Position numbers and translations under genes: made by a program
In this document: positions 4,471 through 57,377 of the stretch, in pieces
Layout of the letters: every line of letters begins with the position of its first letter
Numbering within the stretch: position 1 is the first letter of the stretch
The notes under the pieces: generated by a model
The model's database searches: none
The model's input: only the letters and a program-made list of their open reading frames with translations
Told to the model about the DNA's origin: nothing
Assembly (NCBI GenBank): GCA_031763025.1
Contig: JASSKH010000002.1
Location: 20,278,168-20,342,167 of the forward strand
Source: Macrocystis pyrifera
Lineage: Eukaryota > Sar > Phaeophyceae > Laminariales > Laminariaceae
DNA: 64,000 nucleotides
Reading direction: 5' to 3'

Positions 4471-5024
4471 CTAGGGATGGGAACGGATTCGTTTTAGTAC
4501 GTAAAAAAAAACAAAGGATGTCGCATGGTCGTTATCGGGGGAAAAAAATCTTTAGGAAATTAACCAATCCGTGATTGGGAAAAAAAAAAAAGTTTGCAAC
4601 CAAAAAATCCGTTCTATGATGCTGCCTCTCAAAAATAAAATAAAAAGCAGTGCCGGCATCGATATTGTGGCGTTGAGCTGTAGTTGGAAAAAAGGCAGCC
4701 TTGCTTTTTGCACGACACGTGTTGCAGGACAGCGCACAACCAAGCCCAGAGGATGGAGTTGCAGCGTAGACACGGACGCGCGAGCGTGAACGAATCGCAC
4801 GTTCCTGGGGAGGCCTTGGGATTGGCGACCGGCAACGAGAAAGCTGCCCTCCCCTGTGAAACACATCTTGTACAGATCAAGTCGCAGCATGCGGTCCCGT
4901 TTTACTGCTGTTAACAACTAAACAAGAAGAAGATACCTCGTACCTACACACAGAGCATGGACACTCGGCTGCGTGTTGCTATACTGCACTTCGCCGAGAC
5001 CGGGAGTTCGACGGCGCTGCCTGC

Positions 5025-5480
5025 ACCTCCGTGGCAGCGCGCCCCACTTCTAGCTCACGGGCAAGTTGTTGTGCGTGCAGCTGGGCTTGAGCCTTGCGGC
5101 CAAGGCTGCATTCACCACGCGCCTGAAATATGCATGCTGCTGATGTATGTACTCGTACGTACGTCGTACCACTCTGTCCGGAAATGTAAAGAACAGCTTA
5201 TTTTCACATTTATGATTAAACCATTCCTATATTTCCGGACAGGGTGGTACGCTAGAGTATTTTTACTCCGTCGTTTTCTCACGTGAGACAACAATAGTGA
5301 TGCGTTCGCATCTGAACGCTAGGGGTAACTCGCTTCCTGCTGCATCAAGGCCCGATCACAGATGGTCTTCGCTGCTGCGATGACACCGAGTGTGATGGCG
5401 ATCGCTCGGCGTGCGGCCGCTTTCATGTCTGGCACCGTTTGCCCGATACCATGAAGACTGGAAGTCCTTTGTTTTTATCT
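5025..5480 (-). pseudogene. Relic of the element-C coiled-coil gene inside element A
   Basis: On the minus strand, 5030-5130 aligns with the central part of the gene at 24536-25213; shared stretches include gcagcgcgc, cacttctagctc and ggccaaggctgc. A second block near 5390-5450 aligns with its 5' part. The frame is broken and the start region is lost. An 85-bp foldback insertion (5166-5250) separates the two blocks. It cannot encode the original protein. Confidence 0.55.
5166..5250. mobile_element. TA-flanked foldback MITE family M2, copy in element A
   Basis: The inverted ends are ccactctgtccggaaat at the left and atttccggacagggtgg at the right, each bordered by TA. A homologous copy sits at the corresponding place in the degraded element at 26372-27620 (26966-27048). 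It therefore inserted before those two transposon copies separated. A half-site remains at about 27697-27722. Confidence 0.6.
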
Positions 5481-5986
5481 CGGGATATTTTTTGTCGAAT
5501 TTCCCATCAACAATTGACTCTTCAAAAGAGGGTCAACTCGTGCAACAGATTTCATGTCGGCCACTTGTCGGATTCAGGTGCGGATTGCATTGCTGTGTGC
5601 GCAAAGTCATTCCGCATCGATTGACTAGTTTAGATTTTCGAGTATAGTCAAATAGACAGAAAGATACGAATACAACCTAAAAAAATCGAGTTTTCCCCCG
5701 CGTATTTCCACAAAAACTTAGCGGAGCAAAAATCTGCAGATCAAAGCACAACCAGTCAGTGGATCATTCTCCATCGATGGGAGGTGTCTGTCGAACTTTA
5801 TCATCCAATTCGTTTCCCTGGTCGAGTAATCAGTTGCTCGGTGCTACACGTGAATGTAGTCTAAAACCAAGTGAATAGGGTGGTGGCAGACTATTTAAAA
5901 AAATTGTTCTTTCGACATTTTTTGAACGGATTCTCCAATAGACTGGACATTTTTTACGTCTAAAACGAATCCATTCCCATGCCTAA

Positions 5987-6883: not shown

Positions 6884-8064
6884 TTAGGGGCGGGACTGGA
6901 GGCCTGTTTTGACCCCAAAAAACGGCAGGCTATTCCAACCGACCAGCCCAAAAAAAAAAAAAAATCTGAAAAAATAAAACTACCACCATACCCTAACTAC
7001 TTGGTTTGAGTGCGGATGCGTAGTGAACTTGTATCTGATATTTCTCTGAGGTGGAGATTGAGCCGGTCTTGACCTCGTCCAGACACCCCACACAGGGCAC
7101 ATACCGTTCGGATCGCCTGCTTTTTTTAGCACGGGAGTACAAATTGACGTCTTTATAGACTAAAAAGTGCGGAGAAACATGTTTTTTTTTTCTGTTTTTT
7201 TCTGTCTCTTGCTCTATGGTGTGCTTTGAGTGGTGGGTAGACATAGCCATATTCTGCATTGGGATGTGCGGCATACGGCAAAACAAACCCCGCTCGAATC
7301 GACATAGTATCCGCAGAGAACGATCTGGCGAAAAATCGCCCCTTTTCAGTCACTTTTTCGGGACCTGTACCATGGCAACCAATTTCTTGATGGGGAATTA
7401 TTCGAAAACACCCGAACGAACCTCGGCCAAGGGCAAAAAGAGGAAAAAAAAATATCCAAGCGAATCGGGAGGCATATCTGCAGCGTACGGGTGGTACCGT
7501 CCACGACGCGTCGGCGATCGTGTGCCGAGGGAATGCTGTTGTCCGCCGTGGCATGGGGGGGGCGTGCGAAGGCCGCGACCGGGCTGATGGCTATGGATGG
7601 GAACATCTTGCACCGCTGCAGCAGCAGCAGCATCAGTAGAAGCAGCTGGGTCAGTAGCGCCAGCAGCCGCATCAGGATCAGCAGATCCACCTTCAACCAG
7701 GCCCGGTAGGGGCTGCACTTGCAGGTTGTCAGCCATCGAGGCGGAGGGTCCACCAGTAATACCCCCCCTCACGCTCACGCGCCGGTTTGTGCGCTGCTGC
7801 TCAAGCACTCGTCATGGTGTTTTTTGTTGTGTGCTGCTCCGCCCTTTTTGAGCGGCACGCTGCAGCTCCTCTCGTACCATACATGACATACCCTGGTACC
7901 TGGTACGTGATATATGATAACACGTGGAGATTTTTTTTGTGACGTGTCCATTCTTTCCCACGCGCTTATTGGTTAATTTCTTGAAGACTTTTTTTCCCAG
8001 ATAACGACCGCTGACATTTTTTGTGACTTTTTTACGTCTAAAAATATTTCAGTCCCACCCCTAA
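6884..8064 (-). mobile_element. Element B: TIR DNA transposon related to A and C, reversed
   Basis: 1181 bp with ends ttaggggcgggactgg (left) and, complemented, ttaggggtgggactga (right). The right end has the conserved gttatctggg..aaaa..aattaaccaat block that lies at the left end of elements A and C, so B is inverted relative to them. Flanks are ctg (6881-6883) and atg (8065-8067). A nearby duplicate of the target region at 8149-8172 reads ttaactgtgggttgcc without the insertion, supporting a 3-bp CTG duplication. It carries a truncated gene relic at 7390-7590. Confidence 0.75.
7390..7590 (+). pseudogene. Truncated homologue of the element-C coiled-coil gene
   Basis: The start region reads MGNYSKTPERTSAKGKK and matches MGNSKKPEGTGRKGKKKK of the gene at 24536-25213, including the Lys-rich tail. 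DNA similarity continues to about 7570 through the region encoding 'RRVGDRVPRE', but the reading frame no longer follows the parental protein and terminates at 7587. CAG-rich sequence follows. Orientation is opposite to the element-C gene, as expected because element B is inverted. Non-functional by appearance. Confidence 0.6.
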
Positions 8065-23362: not shown

Positions 23363-23365
23363 CAG
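23363..23365. repeat. Target-site duplication of element C (left)
   Basis: cag, matched exactly by cag at 25721-25723. Confidence 0.7.
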
Positions 23366-23591
23366 TTAGGTGTGGGACTAGAATTTTTTTAGACGTAGAA
23401 TTTGGAAAAAAAATGTCCCATGTCGTTCTCTGGGGAAAAAAATCTTTAGAAAATCAACCAATCAGCGATGGGGGGAAAGGACCCACGTCATCAACAAAAA
23501 TCTATTCGTAAAGAAAAAGCTGTGCCGCTGCTGCTGCTGTGCCGCAAAAAAGTAGGAGCGTGGCCAGGTGCTGAGTGTGAAAAAAAGTTTG

Positions 23592-23624
<33 letters not shown>

Positions 23625-23685
23625 GTGTTGCTGCTCGAGGTGCTGCTGCACCACACCACGCGCAGAAGCGTACACAGCGGCCAGC

Positions 23686-25213
23686 TTAAGAGGGTGGGCC
23701 ACATCGTCTGGTAGGCCCTCCGGCACGATGGCTGACAGCAGACCAATGCATCCCGTGTCGGACACGCTCGAAGGCGGAGGTGCTGACCTCTCTGCTGCTG
23801 CTGCTGCTGCTGCTGCTGGAGCTTCTGCTGCTAGAGAGGATACCCCCATCTTCGCCCATCGGATAGGCTGTGTGTTGCACATCTTGCACCTCGCCGTGAC
23901 TGCGGGGTTGACGAACCCCTTCTTCATGGGCCCTCTCGGCAAGGGGAGTTGGCATGAGTGGGAGTCTGACCACTTGGTGGCGCTGCTTGGCTCTGTCTGG
24001 TACAAAGTCACTCTGTATCTCCTCCATCACCACGCCGTGCCGCTCCGCCTGTGACAGCCCGACGCCGTACTGATACTGAGGCGAGGCAGCACGAGACCCC
24101 GCACGGCACCCCATTCTTGCCCAGTCCATCCCACTCCCCATCCCCCCCTCGTCCATTTCGGCCATAGAACCTTCCTTTGCCTGGGCGGCTGCCAGCTTTG
24201 CGGTTTTCCGTGACACCTGGCGCATCAGTCAGAGCAGCACCAGAAAGTTAAGTACTGGTATTTTTTCATAGTCAACGCAAGTTGTTTTTTTCGACCCAAT
24301 TTTGTTTTCATCAAAAAGTATACTGGATACAAAGTACAAGCACACAACAACAGAGAGAGAAGTCAGCAAGCGAAGTAAAGGTATATTTTCATAGCCAAAT
24401 CAAGTTGTTTTTTCGACGAAAAAAAAAAGTTCTCAATTAAGTGTACTGGATATAAAGTAGAAGGACACACCAGCACAGGCAGGGACAACAAGACGTTCCA
24501 CATACGAAAAAAAAAATACATTCAACCTTGCTCACCTGCTTCTTGAGGTTGACTGTCTGCGCTCTCAACTTCGCGAGCAAGGGCGCCATAATCTTCGCCT
24601 TTGTCTCAAGCCGCGACACTTTGATCCTCTCGTGGATGATGGCTTCTTGCAGCGCGTCCTCATTCCCTTTGTCGGCTTGGCCGATGCCACACGGAGTCCA
24701 GTCGCCTGCGGTCATCCCAAATTCTTCCAAGATGGTGAGGTTTTGCTGTGCCGTTGTTTTTCCTTTTTCGCGAACCTCCTCCAGCGTCTTTCCCAGCTCT
24801 ACCGCGCGTGCCTCCGACGCAGCGCGCTTCACCTCTAGCTCGCGGCTAAGTTGCAGCTGTGCGTGCAGCTCGACTCGGGTCTGGGCCAAGGCTGCGTCCG
24901 ACTCGTGCCTGAGGTCCTGCTCCAGGTTGAGTTTGCCCTTCTGCTCGAACAACTGATGGGAGACAGCTTGCAGTGAAGACTTTGCCTCAGCGGTCTCGGC
25001 CCGACTCTCGTCGCGCTGCTTCAAGGCCCGGTTACGGATGCCCTCGGCGGCCTCGAGACCGCCGCGCTGGATGGCAAGCGCCCGGCGTGCAGCCACGCCC
25101 GCGTCTGCGACTGTAGTCCCGGTACGCGCCAGATAAGCCTCTTGGTTCTTCTGGACAATTTTCTTTTTTTTCCCTTTTCGTCCGGTGCCCTCAGGTTTTT
25201 TTGAGTTTCCCAT
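23686..25213 (-). CDS. Two-exon coiled-coil protein carried by element C
   Basis: Exon 1 is 25213-24536 (226 codons) and starts MGNSKKPEGTGRKGKKKK. This ATG is chosen because the homologue in element B keeps MGN and the Lys-rich run; an upstream in-frame ATG exists at 25237. Residues about 55-225 are Ala/Glu/Arg/Lys-rich and predicted coiled coil. Exon 1 ends AAG CAG at a gtgagc donor. The proposed intron is 24217-24535 (319 bp, itself a diverged internal duplication), ending gcgccag. Exon 2 starts VSRKTAKLAAAQAKEG and keeps phase 0. It runs through a Ser run encoded by a CAG microsatellite to a stop at 23686. In another exon-2 frame a RCKMCNTQPIRW motif (C-x2-C) and PEGLPDDVAHPLKLAAVYA are encoded, so a frameshift near the microsatellite is possible. 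Function unknown: a DNA-binding or accessory partner of the transposon is only a guess. Confidence 0.5.
24217..24535 (-). other. Predicted intron with internal duplication
   Basis: Two diverged copies of about 110 bp (24247-24350 and 24373-24485) share ttttcatag.caa..caagttgttttttcga and gtactggata.aaagta. Donor is gtgagc, acceptor is gcgccag. The duplication may mean that a former exon between two similar introns was lost. Confidence 0.35.
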
Positions 25214-25720
25214 GGCTGATTGATATTTCGCGATCACTGCCAGAATGACTCAATAGGGCCAAGTTTGATCGCGAATTTCTCATCGGCTATTTACTGGATT
25301 CAAGCACGGATTGATTTGTTGTCTCCGCCAAGTCTCGGCGAAGAGGAGGGCACGTATTGTTTTCATACTCAATTGCAGTACTTCTTCCCCATAGAGCAAG
25401 AGACGAATATAAGCATAAAACACGAGTTTTCCCGCACATTTCCGGCCAATTAGACGTAAAAATCTAATGGAAAATTCTGAATGATGTGCCTTCCCCTCCG
25501 TTTACACTGGTTACACGTGTCTGTTGAATCCCAGGATCCAACTCGTCTCCTATGTCGAGCAATTTGTCATTGCAGGTCAACCAATAATGCAGTCTAAAGC
25601 CAAGTAAATATGGTGGCGGTACATTTTTCATCTTCAATCTTTTTTCGGATTTTTAGGCGGTTTTCGTCGAATAGATGCGCCATTTTTTGGGCACTTTTCG
25701 TCGTCCAGTCCCAGCCCTAA

Positions 25721-26040
25721 CAGTTAGTGTATGGTTCTACTGCGCTGAACAGCAGAGTACAGAGAACATGTAGCACACAAACAGTACAGCTAATACACAC
25801 AGTAGTACAACGAGTACACATAGTGCACAGAGGTGCTCTGGACTGTGCTGCACATAACAGTACACAGAGTGCAACTCTACGGTAGTGCACAGAGTACAGC
25901 GTGCACAAGGTACATAAAGAGCACGCACACTGTTTGAACACAAAGCACACCCATGGTAAACTGTTCGTTGCTGTGGTGTATTAGAACTGCTGCTGCTGTT
26001 ATTGCACAGCTGCACGAGTGTGTCTTTGAGGGGATTCCAT
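25721..26040. repeat. Degenerate CACAGAGTAC tandem sequence, right flank of element C
   Basis: It continues the array seen at 23250-23362, with many acagagtac, gtacacag and gtgcacag words. It starts with the cag duplication (25721-25723). No gene. Confidence 0.45.
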
Positions 26041-26371: not shown

Positions 26372-27620
26372 GGAGGGTTGGGTGCAAATTTACACCTCTT
26401 CCCCCCTGTAAAACTACCAACCAGCGATAGGGCATTTCAAACGATCTCACTACGAAGGATATATGCGTAATGCACTTTCCACGTCACACAAAAAAGTCGG
26501 CCTTGCTGCTCGCATAAAGCGTGCTGCCGGACAGCACCAAGATCAGAGAGTAGAGCAGCAACGTAGGCACGGACGCGCGAGCGTTAGCTAATCACGTGCT
26601 TCTGGTGGCCCCTTGGAATCGGCGGCCGGCAGAACGAGAGTGCGCCCCCCCCCTCCCGAAATCAACTATGTAGAGATCAAGTCGCAGGCTATGTGGTCCT
26701 TCTTTGGTGCTGCTGCTGCTGGACGAGTAGGTATAAACAGCAAAATATACCCACGCACAGCCATCGGCATCGGCTGCGTGTTGCTATGCTGCACATCACC
26801 GAGACCGGGATTTGAAGAGGCGGCCCGCACCTCTGTGGAAGCGCGCCCCACGGGCAAGTTGTTGCTGTGCGTGCAGTTGGGCTTGAGTTTTGAGGTCAAG
26901 GTGGCACTCACTACGCGCCTGAAGTTCTGCATGGTGCTGCTGTATGTACTCGTACCCGTATGTGCCTACCACTCTGTCCGGAAATGTAAGGAACCGTTCA
27001 TTCTCATACTCATACTCGAACCATACCTATATTTACGGACAGTGGTACGGTAGAGTGTTTCTTCTGGATCATTTTTCAATTGAGACAGCAGTGATGCGTT
27101 GGCATCTGCAAGCTAGGCGCGCGACTCGCTTCCAACTGCATCAAGGCCCGATTACAGATGGTCTTCGCTGCGGCGACGGCACCGGGTGTCATGGCAATCG
27201 CTCGGCGTCCGATCGCGCTCATCTCTGGCACCGTTTGCCCGATTCAATCAAGACAAGTGGTTTGGTAGGACTGGATGTCATTTTTGTTTGTTTCCCCTTT
27301 TTCATCTCGGGATATTTTTTCTCGAATTTCCCATAAAGAATTGACTCACGAGAGGGTCAACTTTTAGAGCGAATTCCTTGTCGGCTATTTGTCGGATTCA
27401 AACGCGGGTTGCATTGCTGTGTGCGCGAAGTCTTAGCTGGGGCGATGGCACGTATTGTTCCTCTAGCAATGTCAAATAATATTTCTCTGGAGAAACGGAT
27501 ACGAATATAACCTTAAAAGTCGAGCTTTCCCGCACATTTCCTATCGTATGGACGTCAATGAAAATTTGCTGATAGACTGGACATTTTTCACGTCTAGAAC
27601 GAATCCATTCCCATCCTTAA
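26372..27620 (+). mobile_element. Element D: degraded relative of elements A/C
   Basis: The right end is clear: complemented it reads ttaaggatgggaatgg, then gacgtgaaaaatgtcc. The interior is collinear with element A (gacacggacgcgcgagcg-like, gatggtcttcgctgc, tctggcaccgtttgcccg). The left end is degenerate: ggagggttgggtgc at 26372 followed by ccaaccagcgataggg matches the family start loosely. Flanks ctc and cat do not match. Gene relics near 26820-26930 derive from the coiled-coil gene but are not open. Confidence 0.6.
26966..27048. mobile_element. TA-flanked foldback MITE family M2, copy in element D
   Basis: Ends ccactctgtccggaaat and atttacggacagtgg, bordered by TA. Orthologous in position to 5166-5250. 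Confidence 0.55.
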
Positions 27621-28310
27621 CATTGCCTCAGTATACCAGATATTGGTTTGTCTGAGAGTGTACGGACTATTTGGATATTAATATGAATACCAAAGGCTCC
27701 TTACATTTCCGGACAGAGTGGTAAAGTCTACAGTACAAGAATCGATGTGTTGATGGCGTGGTTAGTGTTCATGCTGTCCATCACGACAAGCGTGTTGTTT
27801 CTGTTTTCCCCACCTTTCCGGTCGGCACCCAATTGTCGTCGATGTAATCACCAATCCCCCAGGCGTTCAGAATATACAGGCCTTTTTTAAGTCGAATATA
27901 AAAGGTATTACAATAACCATCGTCCTATTTTTAGTGCACACACAAACGAGTACATCATGTACAACAGCAGCAGTAGGAAATAAAATGCTACATTCAATAC
28001 GTCCAGAGATATTTGTATAGCAGACGAACAAGATTGAATGGCTACCATGACTTTGATGGTGATAATTCCCGCACTAGTATGGACAATATTATATTATAGA
28101 ATAAAAAACACTTACAGAGCGTACAAGGACAAATGGTGTTGATGACGTTGATGGATGTTGATGACGATCGTCGTGTTGTTTACGCCCACCTGTCTCGTCG
28201 GTATCCTCAAGTACGCATAATAGGGTCTGCATACTAGGAATATACATACGAGGGTGAACGACGTTGACGTTGTTTACATTGATGGCGATAAGCGTGCCGT
28301 TTCTCCCTTA
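27621..28310. other. Noncoding stretch with two partial exon paralogues
   Basis: Contains minus-strand fragments 27814-27872 (NAWGIGDYIDDNWVPTGK followed by a gtgggg donor-like site) and 28190-28212 (LRIPTRQ followed by gtgggc). Both match the 3' end and donor of the exon at 28312-28455. A half-copy of MITE M2 lies at 27697-27722. Otherwise nothing recognised. Confidence 0.4.
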
Positions 28311-53748: not shown

Positions 53749-54072
53749 ATGGACCCATTAATTCTGGCGACTCTTCCCGAAGAAACGAGGAAGATGGTCG
53801 AGGACAACTTCGAACAAGCGCTCCGGCAACAGCAAGCTGCACGTGACGACAGTTCAGCGGAGGGAGAGAGGATAGACGAAGGACGAGCAACCGCCCAGGA
53901 AGGACCTGTGAGCACCGCCGCATCGTCACCCTCCCAAAAATTCACGCAGGACTACGCACGAGTACAACAGCAAGCGTGGGCGTCAGGCCCAGCCTCAGGC
54001 ATGTTTCGATTTAGTACCAGTAATAGACCGCTTCGTGCGGGGGATGGCCTCGTCGCTATGGCCGCGAGATGA
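53749..54072 (+). pseudogene. Possible Copia N-terminal (gag-like) ORF, truncated
   Basis: Starts MDPLILATLPEETRKMVE directly after the cagatc satellite and is acidic and Gln-rich (EQALRQQQAARDDSSAEG). Residues from about 91 onward come from the 265-bp inverted arm (54021-54285), so the natural C-terminus is missing. No zinc knuckle, protease or integrase follows. Calling it gag rests only on its place upstream of a Copia reverse transcriptase. An unrelated gene start is equally possible. Confidence 0.3.
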
Positions 54073-54285
54073 TGTGGGGTGTTGTGCAAAGACGTGTAGA
54101 AGATGTTAATAAATATTTATTACTCGTTGCTGTCGGGAAGGAGGGAAACAAAAGAGAGAGTGAGCTGTGATGCGTCATTCTTGTTCCCCTCTCCCAAATA
54201 ATGTATTCACCTCCGTGTTTGCCAAATTTCTACAGTCAGTCCTTCTCAATCACTGGAAACTTCCTAGAGCCATCCTGTATTCCCA
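54021..54285 (+). repeat. 265-bp inverted arm, left
   Basis: Near-identical reverse complement of 56740-57005, with only about three substitutions seen. It starts taatagaccgcttcgtgc and ends tgtattcccag. Both outer and inner boundaries are shared exactly, so a discrete unit was duplicated in inverted orientation. It is not TG..CA-bounded. Contains a taataaatatttatta palindrome. Confidence 0.85.
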
Positions 54286-55465
54286 GACTTTCCAACGGAA
54301 AAAGATGTTCATGCGCTTACCCCGAGGTTGTGGTAGGTTGTCCGGAAAGATTGTACGATTGAATAAGAGTCTATACGGCCTGAAGCAGGCTTCAAGGCAA
54401 TGGCATGCGCACCTTACTAGATGTTTAAAGACTCTGGGTTTTGTGCAATGCTTGGCTGATGCATGCGTTTTTCGTTTGATGGAAGAAGCAAGTGTGGTGA
54501 TGACTATAGTGGTGCATGTAGATGATATATTTGCAGTAGGAGAGAAGGAGAGGTGTGATCGGTTCGGGAAGGACTTGAACCAGATGGTACCGGTCAAGAA
54601 CTTGGGAGAGTTGCGTTGGTATTCGGGGTGTTTCTATGAGAGGGATTGGGAGAAGGGAGTGTTGAAGATTTCCCAGCAGACTTTCGCTGAACAGTTGGCG
54701 GATGAGTATGGGATCGAATTTGGTAAGAGTGCTCCGCTTTCTGTTGGCGCGAGACTTGCTGAGTTCGACGAGAACGAAGCACCAGGGCACCGGCCTTTTC
54801 GCGAGCTGGTAGGCTCACTTATGTGGCTATCAACCCAGACTCGACCTGACATCTCTAACGCAGTAAGAGCGGTGGCTAGGTACTGCTCAGCGCCTAAGCG
54901 TGTCCACTGGAAGGCGGCACTTGGTATTTTAGGATATGTGAGACGGACGTGTTCATTAGGGATTACTTTTCAGAAAGGTTCGGTAGGGCGGCTAAATCTG
55001 CAGGTTTTTGCTGACGCAGACTATGGTAGTAAAGCAGCTGACAGGAGGTCAGTTTCTGGGGGGTTAGTGATGTGTGGTGGTGCATGTGTGTCATGGTTTT
55101 CGAGGACTCAGAAATGCGTCACGCTTTCCGCAACGGAAGCAGGGTACGTGGCACTTGCAGATGTAGTAAAGGAGGTGTTATTTTTTAGGCAGGTTTGGCG
55201 CTTTATGTTACCAGAAGTGGGGATGCCATGCATACCGGTGTTCGAGGACAATGAGGGTGCAGTGCAACTTGCACAAAACCCCATTACCAACTCCAACTCC
55301 AAGCACATCGACGTGCGACACCACTTTCTCAGGGAATTGGTTGGGAGGAAAGAGATATCGATCATCCACATGTCGTCACCTTTTCAGCATGCGGATTTTC
55401 TTACCAAAGCAATACCGCGTGAGTCTTTTGATTTTCACCATAGCATTGCCATGAATACATGGTGA
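54167..55465 (+). pseudogene. pol: Ty1/Copia polyprotein fragment: reverse transcriptase and RNase H
   Basis: Residues 1-40 of the open frame come from the inverted arm. Copia sequence begins near residue 41 (KKMFMRLPRG). Reverse-transcriptase landmarks are KSLYGLKQASRQWHAHL (67-83) and the catalytic VHVDDIFAV (117-124, second and third Asp of the site). RNase H landmarks are VFADADYGSK (280-289), SATEAGYVAL (321-330) and VFEDNEGAVQLAQNP (358-372), followed by KHIDVRHHFLRE and ADFLTKAI near the end. The normal upstream parts (gag, protease, integrase and the first catalytic Asp region of RT) are absent. The frame itself is uninterrupted, so truncation looks fairly recent. It could not mobilise itself. 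Confidence 0.9.
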
Positions 55466-56739
55466 CAACCAGTGTTGTTTTTGTTCATTTTGGGGTATTG
55501 AAGTTTTTTGTTTGTCTGTTGGGGAGACACTGGTAGTGTGTTTTAGTGTGTAGTTTAAAACATGAGATTTGGGAATCTGTCTTTTGGATTGTGGCCTTTT
55601 TATTTTTATGATATCATGATGAATAGGATTTCGGACTATGAAATTCGGAAATGTGTGATACTTGATATACTATGCAGTAGACTTATTCGACACTACTTTA
55701 CTCAGCTGATGACCGTTTAACCGGGAAGGCCAAGTGTCGATTACTGGGACGATGTTGAAGTTAAGAGATGCTGGAACTTGGTATTCGGTACCTGGTACTT
55801 GGTTACGTTGGGGCTTGGTTTCCATATACAGCACTCGAAGCATGGTGACAGAGGTTTGGGGGGCTAATAATGGCGGTTCGATTTTATTATCTGGACTAGC
55901 ATTTTTGTTTTTTTGGGGGAGTATTTGTATAGGATGATGAAATTTGAGACTTCTATATTGATTTCAGCATTATCATTGATGATCGAGGATCCGGAGTATG
56001 TTAATTGGAGGTGTAATTTTTTTGTGTTTTTGGGAGTACTCCATGACGGATTTATGCCACCGTGCGAATGTGATCAACCCTAATTCATTCAGCGATTCCC
56101 GTTTGATTATCGTGGACAAATCGGCTACTAGTTACGGCGCTGAATGGTTATTAATTTTTTTAGTTCCAGTCAGTATGGTGAAGAAACTTGTGTTTGAATT
56201 TGAAGTAGTCATGGGATTTTGATGGATGAGTATTGTTTTTGTTTTTTTGGAGTGATTTTAAAACGACGTGGACTACATCATTGATTAGAGGCGCTGATCG
56301 ACATGGTATATTATAGGAGTTCGGACATGAGATGAGTAGTTTGGGTCACCTAGAGGGATTATCATTTTGTTTTTATTAAAAAAAATTATCCAAGTGGGTG
56401 AATATTATGATGCCACTGTTAAGGGGGGCTCATCGACAAAGTAATCAAGTGGTTGAATCTTTCAATGTCCTTGGTCAGGGGGGCTCAAAGACTAAGTGAT
56501 CAATACATTGAATAGATATTGTGGTCGCACGATGTTCTGTAGCATATGGTTGACTTATAGGATACGTTGATCGAATAGTATGCGGATGAGCCGAATATCA
56601 GTGCGTCATATGGCACGTACGAGTAAACGGTCAATTATTTATTGGATGGGATATTCTGACCGGAGATAGTACGGAATTCCGATATTGAGATATCGTTCGA
56701 ACAATATTCCTTGAGGTAGTATGAGACTGGATTGATTTC
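55466..56739. other. 3' region of the Copia fragment, noncoding
   Basis: T/G-rich with no gene. Two purine-rich runs (aaggggggctca at about 56423 and caggggggctcaaagac at about 56475) resemble polypurine tracts that normally precede a 3' LTR, but no LTR pair is visible. Confidence 0.4.
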
Positions 56740-57005
56740 CTGGGAATACAGGATGGCTCTAGGAAGTTTCCAGTAATTGAGAAGGACTGACTGTAGAACT
56801 TTGGCAAATACGGAGGTGAATACATTATTTGGGAGAGGGGAACAAGAATGACGCATCACAGCTCACTCTCTCTTTTGTTTCCCTCCTTCCCGACAGCAAC
56901 GAGTAATAAATATTTATTAACATCTTCTACACGTCTTTGCACAACACCCGACATCATCTCGCGGCCATAGCGACGAGGCCATCCCCCGCACGAAGCGGTC
57001 TATTA
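56740..57005 (-). repeat. 265-bp inverted arm, right
   Basis: Inverted partner of 54021-54285. Inside it (minus strand) the sequence continues gaaatcaatccagtctc, which differs from what follows the left arm, so the inner junctions are unrelated. Confidence 0.85.
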
Positions 57006-57377
57006 CATACCTTGCTTTTGTGAGCGTATACGTAGTATGATATAGATACAACTATAATTACGATTTTTGAGGTCGTTGTCACTTGCTAGCTCTTGGCAGA
57101 CAGACCGACTGATAGACAGCTCTTCGCGAACAGCCCTTCTTCTTTGAAACAGCCGAACAGCCAAACAGCCAAACAACCTTTCTTCTTTCTTCTTCGCAAA
57201 CTGCAACCAATAGACAGCTCTTCGCACAACGCCTAGAAGAGGCGTCTCGCCTTCGACGAACGGCATCTAGATGCAGCTGTAGGCGGCCAAGCTGCTTGCT
57301 GCTGTCTGCTGGTGCTGCAACCCCCCCTCTCTCTTCTCCACGCCCCCTAAGCTCACCTCCCCCTCGTCGAGAGGCGC
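57006..57377. other. Possible 5' leader of the split zinc-finger gene
   Basis: Contains two direct copies of atagacagctcttcgc (about 57112 and 57208) and a ccaaacagc repeat. The plus frame 57225-57370 (EEASRLRRTASRCSC) is open but uncertain. Confidence 0.25.

Follow-up and report, generated by a model that had tools for sequence, protein, structure and literature searches.

A non-autonomous DNA transposon of Macrocystis pyrifera and its convergent two-gene relatives with hAT-like motifs

To our knowledge, DDE transposases carry their catalytic triad on one chain. hAT transposons have TAGGG-like ends, which resemble the ends of the element family described here. The KP deletion derivatives of the P element, like other non-autonomous transposons, are more numerous than the full copies; they retain both ends together with a transposase fragment from the N-terminus. 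In the passages of a Kat1 study drawn on here, this hAT transposase has D310, D377, C402/H405, W576 and E895, with another passage printing D328 for D377; an insertion domain lies between the second Asp and the Glu, and the CXXH motif is common to several superfamilies (PMC4763223). Trp319 belongs to the insertion domain of Hermes in the sections used of a second paper (PMC8230255).

The window is a 64,000-nucleotide stretch of Macrocystis pyrifera DNA, and it was compared with the one assembly in which it lies (537 Mb, 223 contigs). It holds elements A to D, of which element C is the main subject (Table 1). The original prediction described element C as a transposon with an exact CAG duplication, carrying one spliced coiled-coil gene and no visible transposase. 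CAG is indeed found on both sides, and the termini are imperfect 16-bp inverted repeats, TTAGGTGTGGGACTAG / TTAGGGCTGGGACTGG, with the ends TTAGG..CCTAA. In our view, element C probably arose recently, by deletion, from a tail-to-tail two-gene transposon and is non-autonomous; the two genes would be the halves of a transposase, and longer copies would have moved element C in trans. The family has a deletion structure, two convergent coding genes, an ordered set of motifs, a 3-bp duplication and recent spread. An Rfam scan of the whole window gave nothing that reached the gathering score. The EsV-1-7 repeat has at least 150 matches in the host genome (1584 candidates, 150 scored) and none in 14 control genomes; its proliferation is described for brown algae in a section of PMC12477816.

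Table 1. Features of the window discussed in the text (positions are those of the window).
Feature	Position	Strand	Basis or remark
Element A, older deletion derivative; carries remnants of gene 2 and a palindromic element nested in it	4471..5986	+	
Element B, deletion derivative with gene 1 start (MADNLQ..) and frameshifted gene 2 start	6884..8064	-	
Left target-site duplication CAG of element C	23363..23365	.	
Element C, non-autonomous two-gene DNA transposon copy with an internal deletion	23366..25720	.	terminal repeats, CAG duplication, collinearity with C192
Left terminal inverted repeat	23366..23381	+	
False continuation of exon 2, which crosses the deletion junction and reads gene 1 in antisense	23689..24012	-	
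Gene 1 start (MADSRP...GCVLHILHLAVTAGL...LLGSVWY), cut off by the deletion	23728..24010	+	identity to C199 and C190; dN/dS
Gene 2 exon 2, genuine remainder (VSRKTAKL...ERHGVVMEEIQ)	24013..24216	-	match to C209; same segment precedes the catalytic domain in C192 and the C190 palindrome
Gene 2 intron	24217..24535	-	conserved splice sites
Gene 2 exon 1, 226 aa with a Lys-rich N-terminus followed by a coiled coil	24536..25213	-	
Right terminal inverted repeat	25705..25720	-	
Right target-site duplication CAG of element C	25721..25723	.	
Element D, sister of A, left end lost	26490..27620 (start approximate)	+	
CTA target, related empty site of copy L009	50495..50497	.	L009 flanks overlap there by exactly 3 bp

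Two kinds of match led to the longer relatives: diverged ones (C209, C190) and near-identical ones (C192, C190). Positions 3-630 and 640-1926 of element C are 95.8% and 98.3% identical to the C192 copy, which holds about 2.28 kb of extra DNA between the two blocks. On this alignment, element C lacks about 2.3 kb of the central part of the transposon. The copy on C190 near 14.55 Mb is a decayed 8.5-kb element with both genes, both ends and CAG on either side; its left end reads TTAGGGGCAGGACTG after CAG, and its right end reads ..CCTAA before CAG. In the C192 copy, gene 2 is broken by a stop and gene 1 by a frameshift, and the gene 1 block with the C-terminal E could not be located. The right end of this copy falls 8 bp short and is interrupted: bases 1-78 and 74-499 of the query lie at separate places about 1.4 kb apart. 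At C192:1566955-1568832 these right-end pieces share 5 bases, as if an element had inserted with a 5-bp duplication. Each arm of L027 (C190:3846500-3856400), a palindromic inverted dimer of the C family, carries gene 2 with an open catalytic exon together with the last part of gene 1, whose start was not found in the palindrome. No intact copy holding both genes was found in this genome.

Exon 1 of gene 2 in element C has a lysine-rich start followed by a long predicted helix. Modeled alone, it folds as a 130-residue helix between two shorter helices (mean pLDDT 83). A PDB fold search with this coil model gave no significant match, only unspecific long helices, and no relatives of the coil protein were confirmed in viral contigs or prokaryotic genome contigs. 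The splice in element C is credible because the donor CAG/GTGAGC and the acceptor CCAG/GT are both present in the relative on C209; there, exon 1 is 71% identical at the DNA level, and the intron measures 1110 bp against 319 bp in element C. The exon 2 remainder is 39% identical to C209 from the first residue past the acceptor (E 3.6e-9). Within the intron, at window 24223-24492, a stretch of about 125 bp is imperfectly duplicated in tandem (71% identical); C192, the C190 palindrome and near-identical copies have this duplication too. Coding-potential scores for the exon 2 region do not separate the two strands, the minus strand being favoured with one training set; the strand is settled by the longer copies. 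There, gene 2 consists of the coiled coil, the intron, VSRKTAKL..ERHGVVMEEIQ and then a catalytic-looking domain. Past the point where the exon 2 fragment of element C ends, it runs into FLCVAADESLRNGDKKYPIFVSFWD...VLYVLSDNTASVSG; after ERHGVVMEEIQ the longer copies have RHLKPNGEYGESTARMFQ..TGVNMKHELKMSFARKTVKVFALGITKLDGDELVAAILRAPFLCVAADESLRNGDKKYPIFVSFWD..WWG..MKDKTAETQAQLFYETIVD..YPRERVLYVLSDNTASVSGEVGGCVALLQRKLKGED and an Arg-Gly-rich tail. The two-exon gene of the original prediction holds for exon 1 and the splice, but exon 2 is coding only over about 24216-24013, and the rest (to 23689) is antisense to gene 1.

Gene 1 lies on the plus strand, and the ORF at 23728-24054 of element C is its truncated start, 60% identical to C199 (96 columns) and 69% to C190 (64 columns). 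In longer copies, gene 1 starts near the left end with MAD.., an Ala-rich stretch and GCVLHILHL.VTAGL..F.GPLG.GSWHEW, continues with RPAETRWM.IW.GAA.LD.RW and has the terminal part ..PIHQQLVESFFSKYDT. Ten positions of the GCxLHxLHL block, namely C, H and eight others, are invariant in all ten aligned loci. RW is found in five of the six loci whose segment covers the motif (TRW in four of these), and the C-terminal LV[ED]SF[FL]SK, LVESFFSK in the motif of the longer copies, in four of four, one with D replacing E. Element C has no catalytic residues and in that sense no visible transposase, but both of its gene fragments belong to transposase-like genes that continue in longer copies. The Pfam hAT dimerisation model PF05699 does not match two gene 1 C-terminal parts at E values up to 10, and none of its matches listed in the genome (317 candidates, 150 scored; compared by eye) falls on six places with a gene 1 C-terminal part. 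Elsewhere in the genome the same model has at least 150 matches, so ordinary hAT elements are present and detectable. The count of hAT dimerisation-domain matches, at least 150, compares with the 128 hAT copies in 4 families given for Ectocarpus in Table 1 of PMC12477816.

Read across gene 2 and then gene 1, the motifs, assigned by eye, come in the order D, D, CxxH, TRW, E. In two families the Asp of gene 2 lie 67 residues apart, and the conserved sequence beyond the second one extends for 24 residues before turning RG-rich; the Kat1 positions quoted in PMC4763223 give 67 residues between D310 and D377 and 25 from D377 to C402. The genes are cut where the CxxH would be due to begin. Folded from 11 aligned rows, the gene 2 part is predicted as strand-strand-strand-helix-strand-helix at a mean pLDDT of 50, with the two Asp directly after the first and fourth predicted strands, an order that is RNase H-like at low confidence. 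A PDB fold search with the catalytic half returned nothing significant (best E 0.43); two Hermes chains (E 2.9 and 5.2) stood amid other RNase H-like and unrelated folds. PDB sequence searches, including profiles of three conserved blocks, gave nothing meaningful. Pfam matched none of the scanned segments of either gene above cut-off (best E values below it 0.003 and 0.02), and no relatives of the catalytic half were confirmed in viral contigs or prokaryotic genome contigs. From the motif order, the spacing and the weak fold model, we infer that the products of gene 1 and gene 2 may form one composite enzyme, with catalysis shared between two subunits. The Asp pair is not kept in every relative: N replaces the first Asp in C209, and both are lost in C205. 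The C205 relative, L045 640-2091, has a 484-codon open frame with both catalytic Asp gone and is possibly a decayed or domesticated copy.

One of the two genes might instead encode a whole transposase with unrecognised residues, the other being its partner. The hAT motifs were assigned by eye and have no profile match, which leaves room for this reading. However, past the second Asp gene 2 offers only the 24 conserved residues and the RG-rich tail, and in gene 1 the CxxH is preceded by no more than a short Ala-rich stretch, so neither gene seems to have room for the missing part. The spacing of the motifs also fits a cut between the second Asp and the CxxH, and we regard a whole transposase in one gene as unlikely.

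Both halves occur together at four loci (C190 14.55 Mb, C190 3.85 Mb, C192 1.57 Mb and C200 19.735 Mb), convergent and on opposite strands in all four. Gene 2 is found alone on C209, C202, C194 and C205, and gene 1 alone on C215, C137, C131, C218 and at four other C200 places; C137 also has a gene 2 start on the strand opposite gene 1. The C200 19.735-Mb copy is about 50% identical, with a gene 1 dN/dS of 0.23-0.24 and saturated synonymous sites in gene 2, and because this distant copy shares the convergent layout, the layout is judged to be old. Together with the deletion, the two convergent coding genes are well supported. The layout could also be read as an inversion that killed these elements, the active source being an ordinary one-gene hAT elsewhere. 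Though the lack of a fully intact two-gene copy speaks for an inversion, no locus among the matches has the halves on one strand, and the layout seems to have been kept under selection, given the low gene 1 dN/dS of the divergent locus. An inversion is therefore improbable.

Selection was assessed by dN/dS values that are pairwise, come mostly from decayed copies and are mutually non-independent: 0.26-0.31 for the catalytic part of gene 2 (four loci neither saturated nor near-identical), 0.40-0.55 for gene 2 exon 1 against four diverged copies, 0.13-0.40 for gene 1 where unsaturated, plus one close pair at 0.58, and 0.18-0.40 for the gene 1 start in five unsaturated comparisons. A gene 1 comparison with L037 (score 41) was spurious and was excluded. 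Judged by these values, both genes are under purifying selection in diverged copies, and both strands are coding for the same reason. Between elements B and C, exon 1 has changed at 28 of 59 third positions and at 28 of 120 first and second positions. At the gene 1 start, the changes by codon position are 12, 11 and 10, and the absence of a third-position excess counts against constraint there in this pair.

The young copies differ from this. Exon 1 of element C matches at full length and 97-100% identity at no fewer than 34 places on many contigs, a count that includes element C itself, C192 and two palindrome arms and comes from 40 scored of 215 candidates; the further matches among those scored are one partial match at 93% and five diverged pieces. 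When the best 20 loci were read, 19 were the same element of about 2.35 kb, and L014 was without the left 205 bp. The read-through across the deletion junction, HGVVMEEIQSDFVPD, is identical in 18 of the 20 (L004 reads MEEIQR, and the match of L015 stops at HGVV), and therefore a single deletion event probably founded the young group. The original prediction had named a lack of purifying selection between copies as a finding against it, and none is seen among the young copies: exon 1 is open in only 10 of 20 young copies (element C and 19 others), and the copies of equal length carry nine nonsynonymous changes, stops included, and no synonymous ones, alongside eight indels. The truncated coiled-coil product of element C is most likely a passenger, since there is no sign of selection among the young copies. 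A lower substitution density in exon 1 was rejected as a sign of selection because the loci had been ranked by exon 1 similarity.

By analogy with the KP product of the P element, the truncated protein could act as a repressor that poisons the transposase. Its predicted oligomerisation region is retained, and copies with this deletion have multiplied. Against a repressor stand the open exon 1 in only half of the copies and the nonsynonymous changes just given, and small size with usable ends would explain the multiplication. We give repression little credence and keep to the reading of element C as a deletion derivative with a passenger fragment.

The insertion sites of the same 20 loci fall into two groups. 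Whole ends are found at nine loci, two of them beginning CTAGG, and identical 3-bp flanks at eight of these nine; the flanks seen are CAG, CTG, CGG, CCG and CTA, and the exception, L005, has CAG and CTA. At the empty site related to copy L009, its two flanks overlap by exactly CTA, and therefore the duplication is 3 bp long, a wording chosen over a 5-bp ACNGT with TAGG..CCTA ends, which is indistinguishable from a 3-bp CNG with TTAGG..CCTAA ends and predicts the same empty site. The remaining 11 copies (L002, L006, L008, L010 and L014-L020) are trimmed, with 2-11 bp missing at scorable ends, and no 3-bp duplication was seen by eye in the 10 with both ends scorable. Compared with a related uninterrupted site, L016 has lost 5 and 6 bp and has two bases in place of one target base. 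L019 lies in a satellite and, compared with a neighbouring unit of it, has lost 4 and 2 bp and has one shared base. Across the genome, 33 matches span 496 bp or more of the right 507 bp, 12 of them extending to the final base and 21 ending 1-11 bp short, a count in which BLAST may drop a mismatched last base. On the simplest reading, which has few empty sites behind it, the trimmed copies would be excised linear copies joined into breaks by host end joining. A literature search for end-joined transposons found no earlier report. If confirmed, trimmed copies without a duplication would make the end-joining capture of excised transposons measurable genome-wide. Trimmed ends in 11 of 20 copies apart, element C has the inverted repeats, fixed-length duplication, recent copies and internal deletion of non-autonomous cut-and-paste elements.

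These results suggest how the family may work. The minus-strand gene 2 would supply the coiled coil, the Arg-Gly-rich tail and, between them, the opening half of an RNase H-type core, in which the two catalytic Asp lie. The second half would come from the plus-strand gene 1 and would comprise the CxxH, the C-terminal E and, between the two, a TRW-bearing insertion region. Together the proteins would form a single transposase, cutting at TTAGG..CCTAA ends and inserting at A-CNG-T sites with a 3-bp duplication. Element C, having lost the catalytic parts of both genes, would be moved in trans by longer copies. More broadly, and tentatively, these elements may represent a brown algal transposon lineage with an RNase H site formed in trans (D-D plus CxxH-W-E, convergent genes, 3-bp CNG), in which re-insertion of excised copies relies on host end joining no less often than on the transposase. 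If the halves of a core are kept on separate genes of opposite strands, the family would be a natural split recombinase, open to control through co-expression, and a central deletion would harm both genes together. Among the papers searched, none was found to describe a split hAT-like transposase.

Elements A, B and D are 57-76% similar to element C in pieces. Gene relics are found in all three, and the gene is constitutive for the family rather than a random capture, as the original prediction had it. However, A and D share a nested palindromic insertion within the gene and one deletion pattern, so they count as one lineage and not as independent witnesses. The short palindromic element (TACCACTCTGTCCGGAAATGTAA..) nested in A and D lies at window 5164-5252 and 26967-27041, and a further arm lies beside D at 27649-27723. 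At window 54020-57006, a Copia-type reverse transcriptase ORF (54164-55462; RVT_2, E 5.5e-17) is located between two 267-bp arms that are inverted and 99% complementary, not direct repeats. No Copia polymerase was found in viral contigs.

The original prediction took the coiled-coil gene for an undescribed accessory or second protein of a Harbinger-like system, or for selfish cargo, and named a DDE gene in the same frame as a finding against this. A complete accessory protein or cargo, for which the intact two-exon frame in element C, the relics in A, B and D and the tail-to-tail Harbinger elements of Ectocarpus could be cited, is very improbable and is largely refuted by the longer copies, where the same frame runs on into a conserved catalytic-looking, DDE-like domain, as well as by the deletion junction relative to C192, the absence of a Myb/SANT match in the segments scanned and the truncated gene without visible selection. 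A complete accessory gene and cargo capture were both rejected because the gene runs on in longer copies. A short copy can pass for a novel gene-carrying transposon when its parents are out of view.

The Harbinger guess was reasonable, since all autonomous Harbinger elements of Ectocarpus have two genes arranged tail-to-tail in the part of that survey drawn on here (PMC12477816). A 3-bp duplication is also shared with the PHIS group (PIF/Harbinger, Pangu, NuwaI and NuwaII), whose duplications are TNA, ANT or CWG; CWG is the one used by NuwaI (PMC4482050). CAG and CTG fit NuwaI, but CGG, CCG and CTA do not. Unlike PHIS elements, both genes here seem to carry parts of one catalytic core, the ends start with TTAGG and not GGG, and the segments scanned have no Harbinger domain or Myb/SANT second ORF. 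Membership in PIF/Harbinger was rejected on the absence of these domains, and there was no Pfam match in those segments to support a Harbinger-like system. Element C resembles the KP derivatives in its deletion form and differs in that its coding fragment from gene 2 comes from one of two genes and has no sign of selection. With respect to hAT (hobo, Ac, Tam3; Hermes, Kat1), the duplication is 3 bp (CNG or CTA) and not 8 bp, a coiled coil replaces the BED finger, and neither of the two gene 1 C-terminal parts scanned matches the hAT C-terminal Pfam model. The family is not placed in hAT because of the duplication length, the lack of a single-chain transposase and the lack of a match to the C-terminal domain. 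The apparent likeness to hAT is in the order D, D, CxxH, insertion-region W and C-terminal E, which hAT carries on a single polypeptide and which here would be split over two convergent genes.
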